The notes below the pieces were generated by a model. It searched no databases and was not told where the DNA came from. It was given only the letters and a program-made list of their open reading frames with translations. From a virus, in IMG/VR virus record IMGVR_UViG_3300049927_000040, positions 1 to 28,780 of that record: DNA of 28,780 nt, one strand, 5' to 3'. Positions 1-6,399 of the stretch are shown here, in pieces (position 1 is the stretch's first letter; each line of letters starts with the position of its first letter). A program made the position numbers and the translations under genes.

Positions 1-396
1 GCGGCTACAACCAAGTGGGGGGCTGATGTGACCAAGTGGCCGACGAATCTTCGGAATCCGTTCCGTGATCAGAAGGAGAAAGATAAAGAAGGCTATGTGC
101 CGGGTAACATCTTCATCACAGCAACTTCGGCTAGCCGGCCTGGGCTTGTCGATAATATGTTGCAGGACATCATTGAGGAGAAGGATTTCTATAGCGGATG
201 CTACTTTCGTGCAGAAGTCACAGCCTTTGCGTATGACAAAGCCGGCAATCGCGGCGTAGCGTTTGGATTGAATCACATTCAGAAGCTTGCGGATGGCCCG
301 CCGTTATCTGGACGTGGCACTCCTCAAGATGCGTTCGACGCTGTTGAAGGCGCACCAACGTCCACGGGTTCTAGTCCAGCATCGATCTTTGGATAG
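1..396 (+). CDS. ssDNA-binding protein, DUF2815-like (5' end outside window)
   Basis: The frame is open from the first base, so the gene starts before the window; a GTG at 28 is probably internal because the residues before it (KWGADVTKWPTNLRNPF) belong to the conserved stretch. The motifs NPFRD, a GYVPGNIFITA-like strand, FYSGCYFRAEV, and the pair VAFGLNHIQKL / DGPPLSGR are those I know from the DUF2815 family, phage proteins usually assigned as single-stranded DNA-binding proteins with an OB fold similar in role to T7 gp2.5. The C-terminal tail is short, polar and serine/glycine rich. The position at the head of a replication cassette fits a role in coating ssDNA at the fork. The family assignment is from recall of motifs; the function is inferred from family and context. 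Confidence 0.8.
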   Translation, partial: AATTKWGADVTKWPTNLRNPFRDQKEKDKEGYVPGNIFITATSASRPGLVDNMLQDIIEEKDFYSGCYFRAEVTAFAYDKAGNRGVAFGLNHIQKLADGPPLSGRGTPQDAFDAVEGAPTSTGSSPASIFG

Positions 397-401
397 ATCT
401 C

Positions 402-466
402 GGCTGGGCAAGGCGCGGCTGGGCGGGGCATGGCGAGGCAAGGCGGGGCAAGGCAAGGTTCCCATT
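402..466 (+). repeat. GGCNN pentanucleotide tract 1 (11 units) plus conserved tail
   Basis: Eleven uninterrupted 5-base units GGCNN run from 402 to 456 in the gap between the ssDNA-binding protein and the 181-aa gene. The dinucleotides are TG, AA, GC, TG, GG, AT, GA, AA, GG, AA, AA. The tract ends in GGTTCCCATT (457-466). The last two units plus this tail form the 20-mer GGCAAGGCAAGGTTCCCATT shared with the other two tracts. An ATAAAGGAG ribosome-binding site and the next ATG follow. The fixed GGC with free NN is not a simple microsatellite. Confidence 0.95.
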
Positions 467-489
467 TTAACTTATAAAGGAGCTATACC

Positions 490-1035
490 ATGAAGAGTTT
501 GCGAGTGACCATCACAGGGAAGACACCTCTCTTGATGCACGCATGGCACCATCTCGAAGCGGATCGGTCAAACAAACTGCAATCCCCACTTGAGCAAGCA
601 GAAGCAGGAACATACCGTACCGCAGCAGGCGAATTGTGTGTGCCGGGTTATAACCTTCAGCGCGCGTTGATTGCTGGAGCGACGTTCAGTAAGGGGAAGG
701 GAAAAGGTACACAGAAGCGAAACATCGCAGCGGGTCTGTTCGTGAGGGAACTTGAGATCGGGTTAGGACAGAAAGAATTTGTTGTTGCAATGCACCGAGT
801 CGTGATTGCGGCGTCAGGGAAAGGGACAGCGGTTACTCGATATCGTGCGCGAATCGATAAGTGGGAGTTGGTGTTCACGATAGACTATGATGAAGTGTTG
901 TTGAACAAAACTATTATTGAGAAAGTCATCACAGACACCGGAAATTTAATTGGAATTCTGGACTTCAGACCCGAGAAGCTTGGACCGTTTGGTAAGTTTG
1001 AACTTACCAGGATCACAGAAGCCAAAGCCATTTAA
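490..1035 (+). CDS. Conserved phage protein with N-terminal TPLLMH motif, unknown function
   Basis: The 181-aa protein starts at an ATG seven bases after AAAGGAG. The visible pattern is an N-terminal strand followed by ITGKTPLLMHAW, an acidic EQAEAGTYR segment, a C-V-P-G-Y-N-L-Q-R-A-L stretch, a lysine/glycine-rich loop (about residues 69-76), an RYRARIDKWELVFTIDYD segment and a C-terminal GILDFRPEKLGPFGKFEL. I recall similar unnamed phage proteins with PLLMHN near the start and an FRP...G.FG.F ending, usually close to replication or recombination genes. The opening strand and TPLLMH motif faintly recall RAMP (Cas5/Cas7-like) proteins, which is only a hypothesis. It sits between two GGCNN tracts. 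The basic loop and location suggest nucleic-acid binding. Function is unknown. Confidence 0.75.
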   Translation: MKSLRVTITGKTPLLMHAWHHLEADRSNKLQSPLEQAEAGTYRTAAGELCVPGYNLQRALIAGATFSKGKGKGTQKRNIAAGLFVRELEIGLGQKEFVVAMHRVVIAASGKGTAVTRYRARIDKWELVFTIDYDEVLLNKTIIEKVITDTGNLIGILDFRPEKLGPFGKFELTRITEAKAI

Positions 1036-1038
1036 CCT

Positions 1039-1093
1039 GGCCAGGCTAGGCGTGGCACGGCGCGGCTAGGCAAGGCAAGGCAAGGTTCCCATT
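1039..1093 (+). repeat. GGCNN pentanucleotide tract 2 (9 units) plus conserved tail
   Basis: Nine in-phase GGCNN units run from 1039 to 1083, with dinucleotides CA, TA, GT, AC, GC, TA, AA, AA, AA, followed by GGTTCCCATT (1084-1093). The tract begins three bases after the stop codon of the 181-aa gene. As in tract 1, an ATAAAGGA ribosome-binding site follows, and the distance from tract end to start codon (32 nt) almost equals that of tract 1 (33 nt). Confidence 0.95.
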
Positions 1094-1115
1094 TACATGA
1101 TAAAGGAAACACATT

Positions 1116-1976
1116 ATGGAGATGATCAAGTACAAAATTCCTGGGGGTCCATACAATCAAGTCTGCATCGCCCCGTTAGGCGATATCCAATGGGCGGGAA
1201 AGAATGGGCACACAGCTCTTGGGCACTTGAGAAAGTATATCGAGGATGCGCTCCAGTACAAAGCCCACTTCATTGGTATGGGTGATTACATCGATTTCAT
1301 GAGTCCGTCGAATCGAAGTCGGATCAAGTCAGCAAACCTCTATGACACAGCAGAAGAGGTGATCGATAATGTAGGGATCGCGCTTGCTGAGGAAATATAT
1401 CAAGAAGCTCTTCTGCCAACAAAAGGACGATGGATTGGGTTGTTAGAAGGGCATCATTTCCTTGGTTTGAAAGATGGAACCACGACTGACACTCTGCTAG
1501 CCAAGAGGCTTGATACAGTCTCTCTTGGAACATCGGCGTTGATTCGTGTAGAATTTCTCGCGAATCCATGTGGAGAGAAGAAAAAGCCGTTCTTGGCGTC
1601 CTCGATTCTCTGGGCACATCATGGACAAGGTGGGGGTATGCTACCAGGCGGACCATTGAATAAACTCTACCACGTGTCAGCCGGATGGGAGCAGATTGAT
1701 ATCTTCATGATGGGGCACACAACGAAGATGCCTGTGTCTCGGCATTCCAGGCCGTTCCCAGACTGGAAGACGATGAAGCTTGAGCATCGGGATATGTTGC
1801 TTGTGAATACAGGTGGATTCTGTAAAAGCTCCATTGTGGGTAGTCGCTCTGGACCGATACCGAGAGGGGACTATGCGGAGCAAGGGATGATGTGTCCGAG
1901 TCCGTTATCGGCTCCTCTGATATTCCTACGGCCGAATGAAGAAACAACTCGTGCGTCAGTCGGTGTCTTGATTTAA
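1116..1976 (+). CDS. Calcineurin-like metallophosphoesterase (divergent)
   Basis: The 286-aa protein shows the ordered signature of the metallophosphoesterase fold. LGDIQWAG lies at residues 21-28 (Asp23), FIGMGDYIDF at 53-61 (Asp57), LLEGHHF at 109-115 in the place of GNHE/D, WAHHGQGG at 166-173, and MMGHTTKMP at 198-206 as the late GHxH-like metal site. Such enzymes hydrolyse phosphoesters with two metal ions. Phage versions are found among replication genes and may act as nucleases or nucleotidases; the substrate here is unknown. Two ligands look substituted: a Gln where the D-x-H His is usual, and no Asn in the GNH position. The start follows AAAGGA with 8-nt spacing. It lies between GGCNN tracts 2 and 3, directly before the DNA polymerase. 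Confidence 0.8.
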   Translation: MEMIKYKIPGGPYNQVCIAPLGDIQWAGKNGHTALGHLRKYIEDALQYKAHFIGMGDYIDFMSPSNRSRIKSANLYDTAEEVIDNVGIALAEEIYQEALLPTKGRWIGLLEGHHFLGLKDGTTTDTLLAKRLDTVSLGTSALIRVEFLANPCGEKKKPFLASSILWAHHGQGGGMLPGGPLNKLYHVSAGWEQIDIFMMGHTTKMPVSRHSRPFPDWKTMKLEHRDMLLVNTGGFCKSSIVGSRSGPIPRGDYAEQGMMCPSPLSAPLIFLRPNEETTRASVGVLI

Positions 1977-1984
1977 TAGATCAA

Positions 1985-2044
1985 GGCACGGCAGGGCTCG
2001 GCGGGGCAGGGCGTGGCTGGGCGGGGCAAGGCAAGGTTCCCATT
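1985..2044 (+). repeat. GGCNN pentanucleotide tract 3 (10 units) plus conserved tail
   Basis: Ten in-phase GGCNN units run from 1985 to 2034, with dinucleotides AC, AG, TC, GG, AG, GT, TG, GG, AA, AA, followed by GGTTCCCATT (2035-2044). Unlike tracts 1 and 2 there is no separate ATAAAGGA site: the polymerase ATG at 2047 follows two bases after the tail. The only purine-rich ribosome-binding candidate (AAGG, 2033-2036) therefore belongs to the repeat itself. Confidence 0.95.
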
Positions 2045-2046
2045 AT

Positions 2047-4026
2047 ATGCGGACACTTCATATAGATTTTGAAACGAGATCGACACAGGATCTCAAGGCT
2101 GTCGGGGTTGAGAATTATGCTTCTCACCCCGATACCCATGTTTGGTGTCTCGCTTATGCCTTCGATAGCGAAGAGCCGAAGATCTGGACGCCGGCTCATC
2201 CACTTCCGGAATTTCTGAATCATATTGCTGAAGGTGGATTAGTCATGGCCCACAATGCCGCGTTCGAGCTGTCGATCTGGAACAAACTGATGGTTCCACA
2301 CTACTATTGGCCACAGCTTCGACCTGAACAGACTCGCTGTACAATGGCTATGGCCTATGCGATGGCGCTTCCCGGCGCGCTTGACAATGTTTCATCGGCT
2401 CTCGCGCTCATACAGCAAAAAGATGAGGTTGGGCATCGGCTCATGCTCCAAATGTGCAAGCCAAAGACTGAATCACCTCTAACATGGTGGGATGATCCAT
2501 CCTATATTAAACGGCTCTGTGACTACTGCATTCAGGATGTTCGAGTCGAACAAGCGATATGTAATCGGCTTTTATCACTTTCCCCGGCTGAACAGAATCT
2601 CTGGGCAATCGATCAACATATCAATGAACGCGGGGTTCATATAGATGTAGAAACGATTAAAAAAGCGATCGTGGTTGTCGAGAAAGAACAGGCCAGGCTC
2701 ACGACACAAATGCGAGAGGTGACGAAAGGCGCGGTAGGATCTCCTTCTCAGATTGCGGCGATCATCGCATGGGCTGCTGATAAATGGCCACTCGACGGGC
2801 TCGCGAAGCAGGATATCATAGACGTGTTGCTGCTACCTATCCCGGACGATGTACGCGAAGTGCTCAAGATCCGCCAGGAATATGCGAAGACCAGCACGAC
2901 AAAACTCAAATCTATGATCACAGCGAAGAGCACAGATAACCGCGTGCGTGCGACGATGCAGTTCCACGGCGCGGGAACTGGGCGATGGGCCGGCCGGCGC
3001 ATCCAGCCACACAACATGCCCAGACCGATCATGAAACCTGGTGAAATAGAAAATGTGATCCATATCCTTAATCACTACAATCCCGATAATGCAATACGAA
3101 GAATAGAAACGCTCTTTGGGCCGACGATCAGTTCTGTCTCTGAATGCCTCCGTGCGATCATCTGTGCGGCTCCAGGGAACGAGTTAATCATAGCGGACTA
3201 TAAGAACATCGAGGGTCGTGTGCTCGCGTGGCTTGCCGGCGAAGAGTGGAAGCTGCAAGTCTATCGTGACTTCGATCAGGGCCGTGGACCAGATGTATAT
3301 ACCCACGGCTACGCGAAGTCATTTCACGTTCCCATTGAGACCGTGACAAAGGCACAACGGCAGATCGGGAAGATACAAGAACTTGCGCTTGGCTATCAAG
3401 GTGGAGTCGGCGCGTTTAAGAAGATGGCTTTTACGCACGGCGTAAAAATAGAGGATACCGAAGCGGATATGATTAAATGTCTCTGGCGGGAAGCCCATAA
3501 AAACATTCAGCAGTATTGGTGGGATCTTGAACGCGCAGCAATCGACGCGGTGAACTATCCCGGCCAAGTCTTCTCAGCCGGTTGGCACGGCCGGCAAGTG
3601 CAGTATAAGAAAAGTGGCTCGTTCCTCTTCTGTCGGCTCCCGTCAGGCCGGCTCTTGTGCTATTGTTATCCGATTGTGAAGGAACGAATGATGCCGTGGG
3701 GGGATCTGAAGCTCACCCTTCACTATAAGTGTGTCGATAGTCTCACGAACAAATGGGTTGAAACACATACCTATGGTGGGAAGCTCTCGGAGAACGTGAC
3801 ACAAGCCGTGTCTCGCGACGTGCTCGCTGAAGCGATCGTGCGCTGCGAAGCGAACGAATTTCCCGTTGTGCTTCACGTTCACGATGAGATCATTGTGGAA
3901 TTACCAGCAGGGGAAGCCCAAGCCAAAGAACAAGCGGTGTTCAAAGAGATAGGCTCGCAGCCGGCATGGGCTGAGGGATTACCGATCGCGATGGACACCT
4001 ATAGAGGAGTCAGGTACAATAAATGA
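2047..4026 (+). CDS. DNA polymerase I family (family A) with 3'-5' exonuclease
   Basis: The 659-aa polymerase replicates phage DNA. The N-terminal DnaQ-like proofreading exonuclease has IDFETRS (Asp7, Glu9; Exo I), MAHNAAFELSIW (Asn70; Exo II) and YCIQD (Tyr160, Asp164; Exo III). The C-terminal polymerase has motif A IIADYKNIEGR (Asp384), motif B RQIGKIQELALGYQGG (about 438-453) and motif C HVHDE (Asp613). A TGRWAGRRIQPHNMPRP segment at 311-327 matches the template/primer-binding region of phage family A enzymes. All catalytic residues expected for both activities are present, so it should be proofreading-competent. The start is placed at an ATG giving the usual family beginning, a few residues before the DFET motif. 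The stop overlaps the next start as ATGA. Confidence 0.96.
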   Translation: MRTLHIDFETRSTQDLKAVGVENYASHPDTHVWCLAYAFDSEEPKIWTPAHPLPEFLNHIAEGGLVMAHNAAFELSIWNKLMVPHYYWPQLRPEQTRCTMAMAYAMALPGALDNVSSALALIQQKDEVGHRLMLQMCKPKTESPLTWWDDPSYIKRLCDYCIQDVRVEQAICNRLLSLSPAEQNLWAIDQHINERGVHIDVETIKKAIVVVEKEQARLTTQMREVTKGAVGSPSQIAAIIAWAADKWPLDGLAKQDIIDVLLLPIPDDVREVLKIRQEYAKTSTTKLKSMITAKSTDNRVRATMQFHGAGTGRWAGRRIQPHNMPRPIMKPGEIENVIHILNHYNPDNAIRRIETLFGPTISSVSECLRAIICAAPGNELIIADYKNIEGRVLAWLAGEEWKLQVYRDFDQGRGPDVYTHGYAKSFHVPIETVTKAQRQIGKIQELALGYQGGVGAFKKMAFTHGVKIEDTEADMIKCLWREAHKNIQQYWWDLERAAIDAVNYPGQVFSAGWHGRQVQYKKSGSFLFCRLPSGRLLCYCYPIVKERMMPWGDLKLTLHYKCVDSLTNKWVETHTYGGKLSENVTQAVSRDVLAEAIVRCEANEFPVVLHVHDEIIVELPAGEAQAKEQAVFKEIGSQPAWAEGLPIAMDTYRGVRYNK

Positions 4027-4220
4027 GTGACATCATCGATACTGCTAATGATACTGCGGATCTCTTTCTGGCGGATAGTCTCACCCATCGACAAACGCCG
4101 GCCCCTATCCCGAAAGGTATAGGTCTTTGCTTGGAGTGTTTGACGGATCTCAATACAGACCGGCGATGGTGCGATGCCACATGCCGTGATGAATGGGAGC
4201 GCGCACATGTCCCGCGTTGA
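4023..4220 (+). CDS. Small C4 zinc finger protein
   Basis: The 65-aa protein starts in an ATGA overlap with the polymerase stop, implying coupled translation. The N-terminal half is acidic and probably flexible. The C-terminal half holds CLEC (Cys36, Cys39) and WCDATC (Cys50, Cys54), a C-x2-C...C-x3-C spacing of the small treble-clef/zinc-ribbon type that phages often place next to replication enzymes. It might help a polymerase or primase touch DNA or a partner protein, but no specific function can be assigned. Its last codons overlap the start of the primase-helicase gene, whose GGGAG ribosome-binding site (4195-4199) lies inside this gene. Confidence 0.75.
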   Translation: MSDIIDTANDTADLFLADSLTHRQTPAPIPKGIGLCLECLTDLNTDRRWCDATCRDEWERAHVPR

Positions 4221-6399
4221 TGAGGCTCTATCTTTAGCCGCACAAGGATTCTGGGTGTTTCCGATCGTGGCCGGTAAGAAGTCCCCTCCACTCGAAACCG
4301 GCTGGCAAGACTCCGCGACACGAGATCCGCGTGCGATCCTCGATATATGGGGAAATTATCCCGCGTTGAACATTGGGATCAGTACATCGAAGTTCGGTGA
4401 CGACAAAGCCTTACTTGTGATCGATGTTGATAATAAGGGAGAGAAATATGGAGACGCCACATTGCTGCGGCTTGAAGTCATGGAAGGATGGGATCTGCCC
4501 GAAACCTATGAGCACAGTACACCAAGCGGAGGACGGCACCTCGTATATTCTTGTGACACACCCTTGCGCCAGGGCACGGATGTTCTCGGTTCAGGTCTCG
4601 ATATCAGAAGTCGAGGGGGTTATATTGTTGCTGTTGGAAGTGCCGTGCAGTATGGAATATACACCTCCAACGGACTTAAAACCGTTCAAGCTCCCGACTG
4701 GCTCATTGAACGATGCGCTCTCCCTAGCGAGTATGATGGACAAAGTGATCGTGGACAGCCTGTGCCCCCAATCGACGAGGCTAGGGCTAGTGCGAGAGGA
4801 CGGCACTATCTATTATCCGAAGCTCCGATCGCGGTAGAGGGACAAGGCGGGGATCAAACGACGTTCAAGGTCGCGTGTAAGCTGAAAGACTTTGGGCTGT
4901 CCGGTATGGACGCTCTCTCACTTATGCGCGCCCATTGGAATGATCGCTGTGTGCCCCCGTGGGCTTTTGATGAACTAGTCATGAAGGTTCATAACGCTTA
5001 CGAATACGGAACGAAAGCGCCGGGGAGCAATACCCCAGAGGCCGCATTTGCGGAGCCGTATATCGAACCTAAAGTAGAAGAGCCGGCGAAGTCAGAACAT
5101 CCGGTCGAGAAGTTTAACAATGAATACGCCTTCGTATTAGCGGGAGGAGGCGCGCACATTCTGTGGGAAACTACAGATCTATTCGAGAACTATCATCTCA
5201 TACATCTGGCACTCTCCGCGTTCCACTCAGCGTTCGCTCCTGAGACCATGATGGTAGGGAAGCGAGAAGAACAGACAAGCCAGCTCTGGATGAAATGGAA
5301 GGGTCGGCGCGCGTATGACGGTCTCGTGTTCTCGCCTGGACAGAAGACTCCGGATAGATTTTTCAATCTCTGGAAAGGATTCGCCTATGAGCCAGCCGAT
5401 ACAGGTAGTCATCCCGCTGTCGAAGCGTTTTGTGAACACCTTCTCGTCAATGTATGTCACGGTGAAAAAGCCCTGGCTCATTGGCTCACCGCCTACTTTG
5501 CAGATCTTATACAGCGACCGTACAACAAACCACTTGTCGCACTTGTATTGCGAGGTGCTAGGGGAGTCGGTAAAAATGCACTCGTCGAACGAGTCGGAGC
5601 ATTACTCGGTCACCATTTCCTTCTTACTTCCAACAGGCGATATCTTGTGGGAAACTTCAATGGACATCTTGAGAACTGTCTTCTGTTCGCACTCGACGAA
5701 GCCTTTTGGAGCGGAGATAAACAAGCTGAGGGAACTCTGAAAGATCTGATAACCGGGAGGGAACATGTTATCGAACATAAAGGACAAGAGCCTTATACTG
5801 TCAGTAACAAAACACGTATTGTTATCATCGGGAACGAGGACTGGTTGGTGCCCGCGTCTTACGATGAGAGACGTTTTGCAGTGTTTGATGTTGGAGATGG
5901 ACGAAAACAAGACCGCAGATTTTTTGAAGACATGCGAAGAGGAATGGATCAAGGAGGGTATCGACACTTACTCCGTTACTTGCAGGATTATGATTGTACC
6001 GGAGTAGAAATTAACCAAGCCCCCTCGACAAAAGGACTGAACGAACAAAAGCTCCACTCTCTCGATTCGTTCCACCAATGGTGGCTCGCCTGTATCGAGG
6101 ATGGACGTATTGGAGAATTCGAGCTAGGGACCGATACGATTAGTATCGAGTGCGAGCGTTTTAAGGGGCTCTTCAGAAGGGATGCACAAGAGCGGCAGAT
6201 CCGATCGAGACTCCTTGAGCCCAGAACGATCCGGCGACTTATGAAGCTATGTGTCAAAAGTGCAACAAAGATTAGACTAGCCAAGAAAGATGGGATTCAG
6301 CCATACGCATATCGTATACCAAATCTAGAGACATGCCGGCAAGAATGGAATTGCTTTATCGGACATACCCATATTTGGCCTGAAGAACGAACAGATTAG
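4207..6399 (+). CDS. Primase-polymerase fused to superfamily 3 helicase
   Basis: ATG 4207 is chosen because GGGAG lies seven bases upstream and MSRVDEAL begins a normal primase-polymerase domain; an in-frame ATG at 4174 lacks such a site. In the 730-aa product the N-terminal domain (about 1-170) has the catalytic VIDVDNKG (Asp73, Asp75) and STPSGGRH (His111), typical of bifunctional primase/polymerase. The C-terminal ATPase (about 430-570) has Walker A GARGVGKN (Lys456), Walker B LFALDEAFW (Asp497, Glu498), sensor IIGNED (Asn543) and the DERRFAVFD arginine element (556-557). This matches the DUF5906/virus-type primase-helicase arrangement. A basic C-terminal region (about 600-730) may be a DNA-binding winged helix. 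With the polymerase and ssDNA-binding protein it makes a nearly complete minimal replisome. Confidence 0.93.
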   Translation: MSRVDEALSLAAQGFWVFPIVAGKKSPPLETGWQDSATRDPRAILDIWGNYPALNIGISTSKFGDDKALLVIDVDNKGEKYGDATLLRLEVMEGWDLPETYEHSTPSGGRHLVYSCDTPLRQGTDVLGSGLDIRSRGGYIVAVGSAVQYGIYTSNGLKTVQAPDWLIERCALPSEYDGQSDRGQPVPPIDEARASARGRHYLLSEAPIAVEGQGGDQTTFKVACKLKDFGLSGMDALSLMRAHWNDRCVPPWAFDELVMKVHNAYEYGTKAPGSNTPEAAFAEPYIEPKVEEPAKSEHPVEKFNNEYAFVLAGGGAHILWETTDLFENYHLIHLALSAFHSAFAPETMMVGKREEQTSQLWMKWKGRRAYDGLVFSPGQKTPDRFFNLWKGFAYEPADTGSHPAVEAFCEHLLVNVCHGEKALAHWLTAYFADLIQRPYNKPLVALVLRGARGVGKNALVERVGALLGHHFLLTSNRRYLVGNFNGHLENCLLFALDEAFWSGDKQAEGTLKDLITGREHVIEHKGQEPYTVSNKTRIVIIGNEDWLVPASYDERRFAVFDVGDGRKQDRRFFEDMRRGMDQGGYRHLLRYLQDYDCTGVEINQAPSTKGLNEQKLHSLDSFHQWWLACIEDGRIGEFELGTDTISIECERFKGLFRRDAQERQIRSRLLEPRTIRRLMKLCVKSATKIRLAKKDGIQPYAYRIPNLETCRQEWNCFIGHTHIWPEERTD

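Follow-up and report, generated by a model that had tools for sequence, protein, structure and literature searches.

GGCNN tracts of a virus contig as very probable guide RNAs of a divergent VIPR system

The window analyzed here is a whole stretch of virus DNA of 28,780 bp (IMG/VR record IMGVR_UViG_3300049927_000040), in which tracts of GGCNN units lie in the gaps between neighboring genes, and the question raised by this locus is what kind of element these tracts are and which protein they belong to. We are highly confident that the three tracts are the guide RNAs (vrRNAs) of a phage-encoded VIPR (Viral Interference Programmable Repeat) and that the gene between tracts 1 and 2 encodes its Vipr protein. 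The kind itself has already been described, in a preprint of April-June 2026 (PMC13142463), and since the tracts and the RAMP protein match the VIPR of that preprint, the window is a new and divergent member of it. The identification is based on the sequence pattern, the homology and fold of the Vipr protein, the linkage between Vipr and tracts of diverse NNs across viruses, the shared tails, and the position of the block between the genes of a single-stranded DNA-binding protein (SSB) and a family A DNA polymerase (PolA).

VIPR consists of Vipr RAMP proteins and of vrRNAs of alternating GGY and NN with 9-16 YNNGG repeats and a constant 3' tail; a DNA target is defined by the NNs with one skipped base between them, the effect is transcriptional silencing, and the natural targets are competing phages and satellites (PMC13142463). 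An accessory gene, vap, is typical, and the tail of the SUSP1 clade has a conserved, pseudoknotted secondary structure (PMC13142463). Described systems include SUSP1 type II and that of a P. fulva prophage (PMC13142463; PDB 36pp). VIPR is a newly described mode of RNA-guided DNA recognition, proposed to predate CRISPR, and the locus in the window was reached independently, starting from raw sequence alone.

Repeat tracts in the window

Exact GGCNN runs were found on the plus strand at 402-456 (11 units), 1039-1083 (9 units), and 1985-2034 (10 units), and the scan of the whole 28,780 bp gave no run of at least four units on the minus strand or anywhere else. The three uninterrupted tracts of the preliminary description, and their absence from the other strand, are thereby confirmed. 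In simulations based on the window (first-order Markov, n = 200) the maximum was three GGCNN units. GGC was the sole triplet forming period-5 runs of at least five units on the plus strand, and at periods 4, 6, and 7 one run of that length was found, of AAA at period 6. GGC is constant in 30/30 units, while the variable NNs differ among the three tracts, which agrees with the earlier proposal that selection acts on a fixed three-base element with a five-base period and two free bases.

Reading in the YNNGG register adds one unit to the 5' side of each tract, with CTC, CCT, and CAA preceding the first GG, and every tract continues into GGT at its 3' end; counting both, the tracts contain 12, 10, and 11 GGY motifs. 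A 20-base 3' end, GGCAAGGCAAGGTTCCCATT, is common to all three (447-466, 1074-1093, and 2025-2044). The putative vrRNA 1 (399..466, plus strand) has 11 units at 402-456 after CTC, followed by the last part of the shared 3' end, GGTTCCCATT, at 457-466; its variable NNs are (TC) TG AA GC TG GG AT GA AA GG, then the constant AA AA. The putative vrRNA 2 (1036..1093, plus strand) has nine units at 1039-1083 after CCT and the shared 3' end at 1084-1093, with the NNs (CT) CA TA GT AC GC TA AA, then AA AA. The putative vrRNA 3 (1982..2044, plus strand) has ten units at 1985-2034 after CAA and the shared 3' end at 2035-2044, with the NNs (AA) AC AG TC GG AG GT TG GG, then AA AA.

The tracts occupy all three non-overlapping gaps of a cassette formed by SSB (ending at 396), a gene at 490..1035, a gene at 1116..1976, and PolA (starting at 2047). 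They abut ribosome-binding sites, and their constant 3' ends stop 2-23 bases upstream of the start codon of the next gene, the end of vrRNA 3 being 2 bases upstream of that of PolA. The tails in the window fold no better than shuffled sequence; since a structured tail is a feature specific to the SUSP1 clade, an unstructured one does not disqualify the window as VIPR. No Rfam match was obtained across positions 300-2200, and a tandem-repeat scan of the window found no CRISPR-type repeat-spacer array.

The vipr gene and its neighbors

The gene at 490..1035 (plus strand) encodes a Cas7/Csm3-like RAMP protein of 181 aa, assigned as Vipr from a PHROG match, a profile match to PDB 36pp, an AlphaFold2 model, and Foldseek. 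Its PHROG match is phrog_4652, of unknown function (E = 9.5e-19), and no match to Pfam or NCBIfam was obtained. When a family profile of 70 sequences was compared with all PDB sequences, one strong match was found, 36pp "SUSP1 Vipr protein" (E = 9.5e-43). As a single sequence the window protein aligns with 36pp through the glycine-rich loop region (E = 2.8e-4), and the homolog from SUSP2 aligns over its whole length. The model (pLDDT 91.9) has the Csm complex chain 9ash_F as its top Foldseek match (E = 4e-8), the nearest structures being RAMP subunits of the Csm3/Cas7 type. The protein thus has the features that define the Vipr of VIPR, a small RAMP with an RRM core and a glycine-rich loop, and homology to SUSP1 Vipr. 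It forms an isolated, long, and deep branch, with no relative found above 33% identity, and searches of IMG/VR by peptide patterns gave no close relatives.

The left neighbor is an Enc34-type SSB (28..396, plus strand; PF10991, E = 1.4e-30) whose reading frame extends beyond the contig start, and the right neighbor is PolA (2047..4026, plus strand), supported by PF00476 and by synteny. The second gene of what the preliminary description took for a replication cassette is a RAMP gene. Terminase, head, and tail genes are present on the same contig as the block. No other cas gene was recognized in the cassette, the single RAMP being the sole Cas-like protein, and a profile search found no vap of the phrog_5926 type beside the vipr gene of the window.

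Between vrRNA 2 and vrRNA 3 lies a gene (1116..1976, plus strand) for a predicted calcineurin-like metallophosphoesterase of 286 aa, in which the motifs GD, EGHH, HG, and GHTT were recognized by eye and for which no Pfam, PHROG, or NCBIfam match was found. Two IMG/VR contigs encode relatives with 47-55% identity, and part of the one in L275 has a weak match to phrog_7339 "DNA repair exonuclease" (E = 0.019). Neither Vipr nor long tracts were found near either relative; for this reason the phosphoesterase is probably not a dedicated VIPR gene, and we do not take it for a dedicated vap. It may be a cargo or accessory of VIPR. In the nearest polymerase relatives (L256-L258, with PolA 48-50% identical), PolA directly follows SSB and the same downstream genes come next, while in the window vrRNA 1, vipr, vrRNA 2, the phosphoesterase gene, and vrRNA 3 all sit between the two. 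The whole block has therefore been inserted in the window or lost in the relatives, and the polymerase relatives without Vipr also have no long tracts. Such relatives help to define the minimal system and the boundaries of its module, and the window contributes a Vipr that branches deeply and has no recognizable accessory gene.

Tracts and Vipr in other viruses and genomes

IMG/VR was scanned with a threshold of at least eight GGCNN units, which gave at least 120 loci, and 84,980 cellular genomes were scanned with a threshold of at least 11 units. Strand and distance to start codons were recorded, as the preliminary description had proposed. Among the matches listed, the IMG/VR loci have diverse NNs, often with many runs per contig (up to 11 runs of at least seven units in L117), nearly always in one orientation within a contig, and the unit counts across viruses range from 7 to 29. 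Among the matches listed, most cellular runs are true microsatellites, in which 1-4 different NNs occur, and prophage-like loci are among the few cellular runs that are diverse. Since the cellular runs are mostly of this type, the tract with degenerate NNs is mainly viral and unlike slippage repeats, as the earlier reading had held in setting the tracts apart from slippage microsatellites. Between tracts of one contig, the mean NN identity is 0.30, with 0.5 in the flanks (73 contigs). The median distances in other loci are about 41 nt to the downstream start and about 22 nt from the upstream stop.

A masked all-against-all comparison showed that the tract-bearing contigs share a protein of 180-230 residues encoded beside the tract, to which the product of 490..1035 belongs. 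With a local profile, a Vipr homolog was detected in 85 of 120 viral loci that had been picked by repeat pattern alone (among the matches listed). The gene shares its strand with the tracts in 84 of 86 loci including the window, and the two are usually less than 900 bp apart, again among the matches listed. Vipr is present at 88 of 124 loci with diverse NNs vs 2 of 116 loci whose repeats are simple or not diverse (Fisher p = 4e-33; among the matches listed), and in 0 of 14 viral loci taken for other reasons. This repeat search shows that uncultivated virus contigs commonly carry diverse-NN tracts in linkage with Vipr genes. For 28 of the 111 viral loci that have diverse tracts, no Vipr was found in the examined stretch; a search of the whole records found it in 3 of the 28, leaving 25/111 records without a detectable Vipr (e.g., L106, L118, L024, L047, L069, and L090). 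These may be fragments, may encode a very divergent Vipr, or may carry orphan guides used in trans, and no convincing second protein family is shared beside their tracts.

In INPHARED, Vipr homologs were found in 129 records. GGCNN tracts lie beside Vipr in Pseudomonas LESphi2, Mycobacterium LittleE, and Gordonia MakoManhole, and more degenerate ones in Mycobacterium prophiBWHA-1, while the AT-rich phages Felixounavirus wV8 and Suspvirus SUSP2 (L268) have GGTNN tracts beside Vipr. The GGTNN tracts of wV8 and SUSP2 favor GGY over GGC as the constant part: the invariance of GGC noted earlier holds in the window, and the third base is more generally a pyrimidine. In a profile search, phrog_5926 was downstream of Vipr in all named phages examined, and it is probably the counterpart of a vap. 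Not all tracts adjoin replication genes, since some lie in the lysogeny region of LESphi2 and between tail genes of LittleE.

Several further observations were made in these loci. In wV8 (L267), GGTNN tracts lie at 3730-3960 and 5110-5330, part of them annotated only as direct repeat DR_4. In LESphi2 (L262:3580-3900), a prophage of the Liverpool epidemic strain of Pseudomonas aeruginosa, Vipr and phrog_5926 are accompanied by three GGCNN tracts, and a small hairpin of the GCTG...CAGC type comes after each tract. A minihelix like a T-arm on an acceptor stem follows GGCNN tracts in L108, L122 (= Gordonia phage Trine, L263), L034, L265 (MakoManhole), L266 (LittleE), and L019; it has a TTCGANT loop (e.g., GCTCGG...GTGGGGTTCGACTCCCCACCCGAGC), resembles a minimal RNase P substrate, and is perhaps a tRNA-like vrRNA tail or a processing site. 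The main text of the preprint reports hammerhead-interspersed arrays and does not mention this minihelix (PMC13142463). One contig of an alphaproteobacterial MAG has two Vipr homologs (L190:895-1767 and 3765-4442), and the cultured bacterium Dokdonella fugitiva RH2WT43 (L219, NZ_JACGXL010000001.1), which has Vipr and diverse GGCNN tracts, is a possible experimental host. Related tandem arrays with shifts of about 12-14 bp and about 85-87% identity were found at L093:6171-6401 and L131:12619-12888, in contigs that are otherwise different and both VIPR. No literature was found on "GGCNN" by that pattern name, and the GGCAG repeats of Xanthomonas phage, found within tail-fibre genes and reported as GGCAG copies, were rejected as a counterpart.

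Function and comparison with known systems

By homology with SUSP1 VIPR, Vipr subunits would oligomerize along the vrRNA with one GGY bound per subunit; the NN dinucleotides left exposed would pair with double-stranded DNA having the same dinucleotides with one skipped base between them; and the bound complex would keep the target from being transcribed, the likely target being a rival phage or a satellite. The formation of the ribonucleoprotein, the one-base-skip recognition, and the silencing are what we infer from PMC13142463. The earlier view of the NNs as freely drifting spacers gives way here, since NNs carry targeting information in VIPR (PMC13142463). We decoded the guides with a one-base skip and searched IMG/VR with exact 18-base patterns, which gave two independent matches for vrRNA 1, one for vrRNA 2, and one for vrRNA 3. 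Those of vrRNA 1 are in a RecA/UvsX-like gene of a 429-kb contig and in a head-tail adaptor-like gene, and in both the skip falls on the wobble base; vrRNA 2 matches the same site in three contigs, not in the wobble register; and the vrRNA 3 match is in the wobble register. This number is not above the chance level of about 1-2 matches per pattern, which is our estimate from the collection size, and we claim no target. A control with a two-base skip gave no match for vrRNA 1 in IMG/VR, and a comparison of 307 tracts with the collected loci was too weak to separate the skip rules.

The position of the tracts in the window admits a variant of VIPR, which we think rather unlikely, in which a divergent type has guides that are excised from the 5' leaders of the replication operon or work inside these leaders. 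Since the vrRNAs end at the ribosome-binding sites of vipr, the phosphoesterase gene, and PolA, loading of Vipr on the guides would then also set the translation of Vipr and of the polymerase, and the phosphoesterase would possibly be a nuclease effector. Less probable still is a TRAP-like leader without DNA targeting, in which the tracts are operator-like RNA elements bound by the RAMP and control its own operon (vipr, phosphoesterase, PolA). The 3' ends 2-23 bases before the next start codon and the median distances in other loci (about 41 nt to the downstream start, about 22 nt from the upstream stop) suit such control, but it has no need of hypervariable NNs or of many tracts per locus, such as those of L117, and SUSP1 VIPR, which has the same parts, silences DNA targets (PMC13142463).

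The preliminary description had offered TRAP as the precedent, and the unit number (9-11) and five-base period of the window are indeed similar. The triplet is, however, GGY and not NAG, the counts of 7-29 units across viruses (among the matches listed) are far from fixed, and the linked protein is a RAMP, so that we give a TRAP-type ring ligand next to no probability; what survives of that idea is an RNA ligand of an oligomerizing protein, now the most likely reading. As little weight goes to a two-tier G-quadruplex (G2N3 repeats) acting alone in RNA or DNA, which GG at every five bases would allow but which leaves the fixed pyrimidine, the shared 3' end, and the linkage to a RAMP unexplained. 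A role in double-stranded DNA, as an iteron, origin, or protein-coated spacer, is only slightly less remote: two units make one helical turn and replication genes adjoin, yet the orientation follows vipr transcription in 84/86 loci (among the matches listed) and tracts are also found away from replication genes, in the LESphi2 lysogeny region and among LittleE tail genes.

Compared with known systems, the VIPR proposed for the window resembles TRAP in that a protein oligomer reads a triplet at every five bases of RNA, while the ligand triplet and the protein are unrelated and the viral tracts have no fixed count of about 11. Class 1 CRISPR RAMPs (Csm3/Cas7) share the RRM core fold and the glycine-rich loop, and Csm subunits are the top Foldseek matches. 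Membership in class 1 CRISPR-Cas was nevertheless rejected, for the window has a single small RAMP as its one Cas-like protein, no repeat-spacer array, and no other cas gene recognized in the cassette. The codes also differ, being of five bases and non-contiguous in VIPR and contiguous pairing with every sixth base flipped in class 1 CRISPR. At the level of sequence, every window feature open to testing fits VIPR, except the structured tail and a clear vap gene. The window differs from SUSP1 in its short, unstructured 3' end, and from VIPR as described in having no vap of the phrog_5926 type, in vrRNAs that lie within a replication operon and abut the ribosome-binding sites of vipr, phosphoesterase, and PolA, and in a Vipr with no more than 33% identity to its relatives. 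It shares with the systems of SUSP1 and P. fulva a phage-encoded RAMP of about 20 kDa, GGY/NN tracts in the intergenic gaps around vipr, hypervariable NNs beside constant GGY, an invariable 3' part (GGCAAGGCAAGGTTCCCATT in the window), and numbers of GGY motifs (12, 10, and 11) that lie within the 9-16 repeats described.
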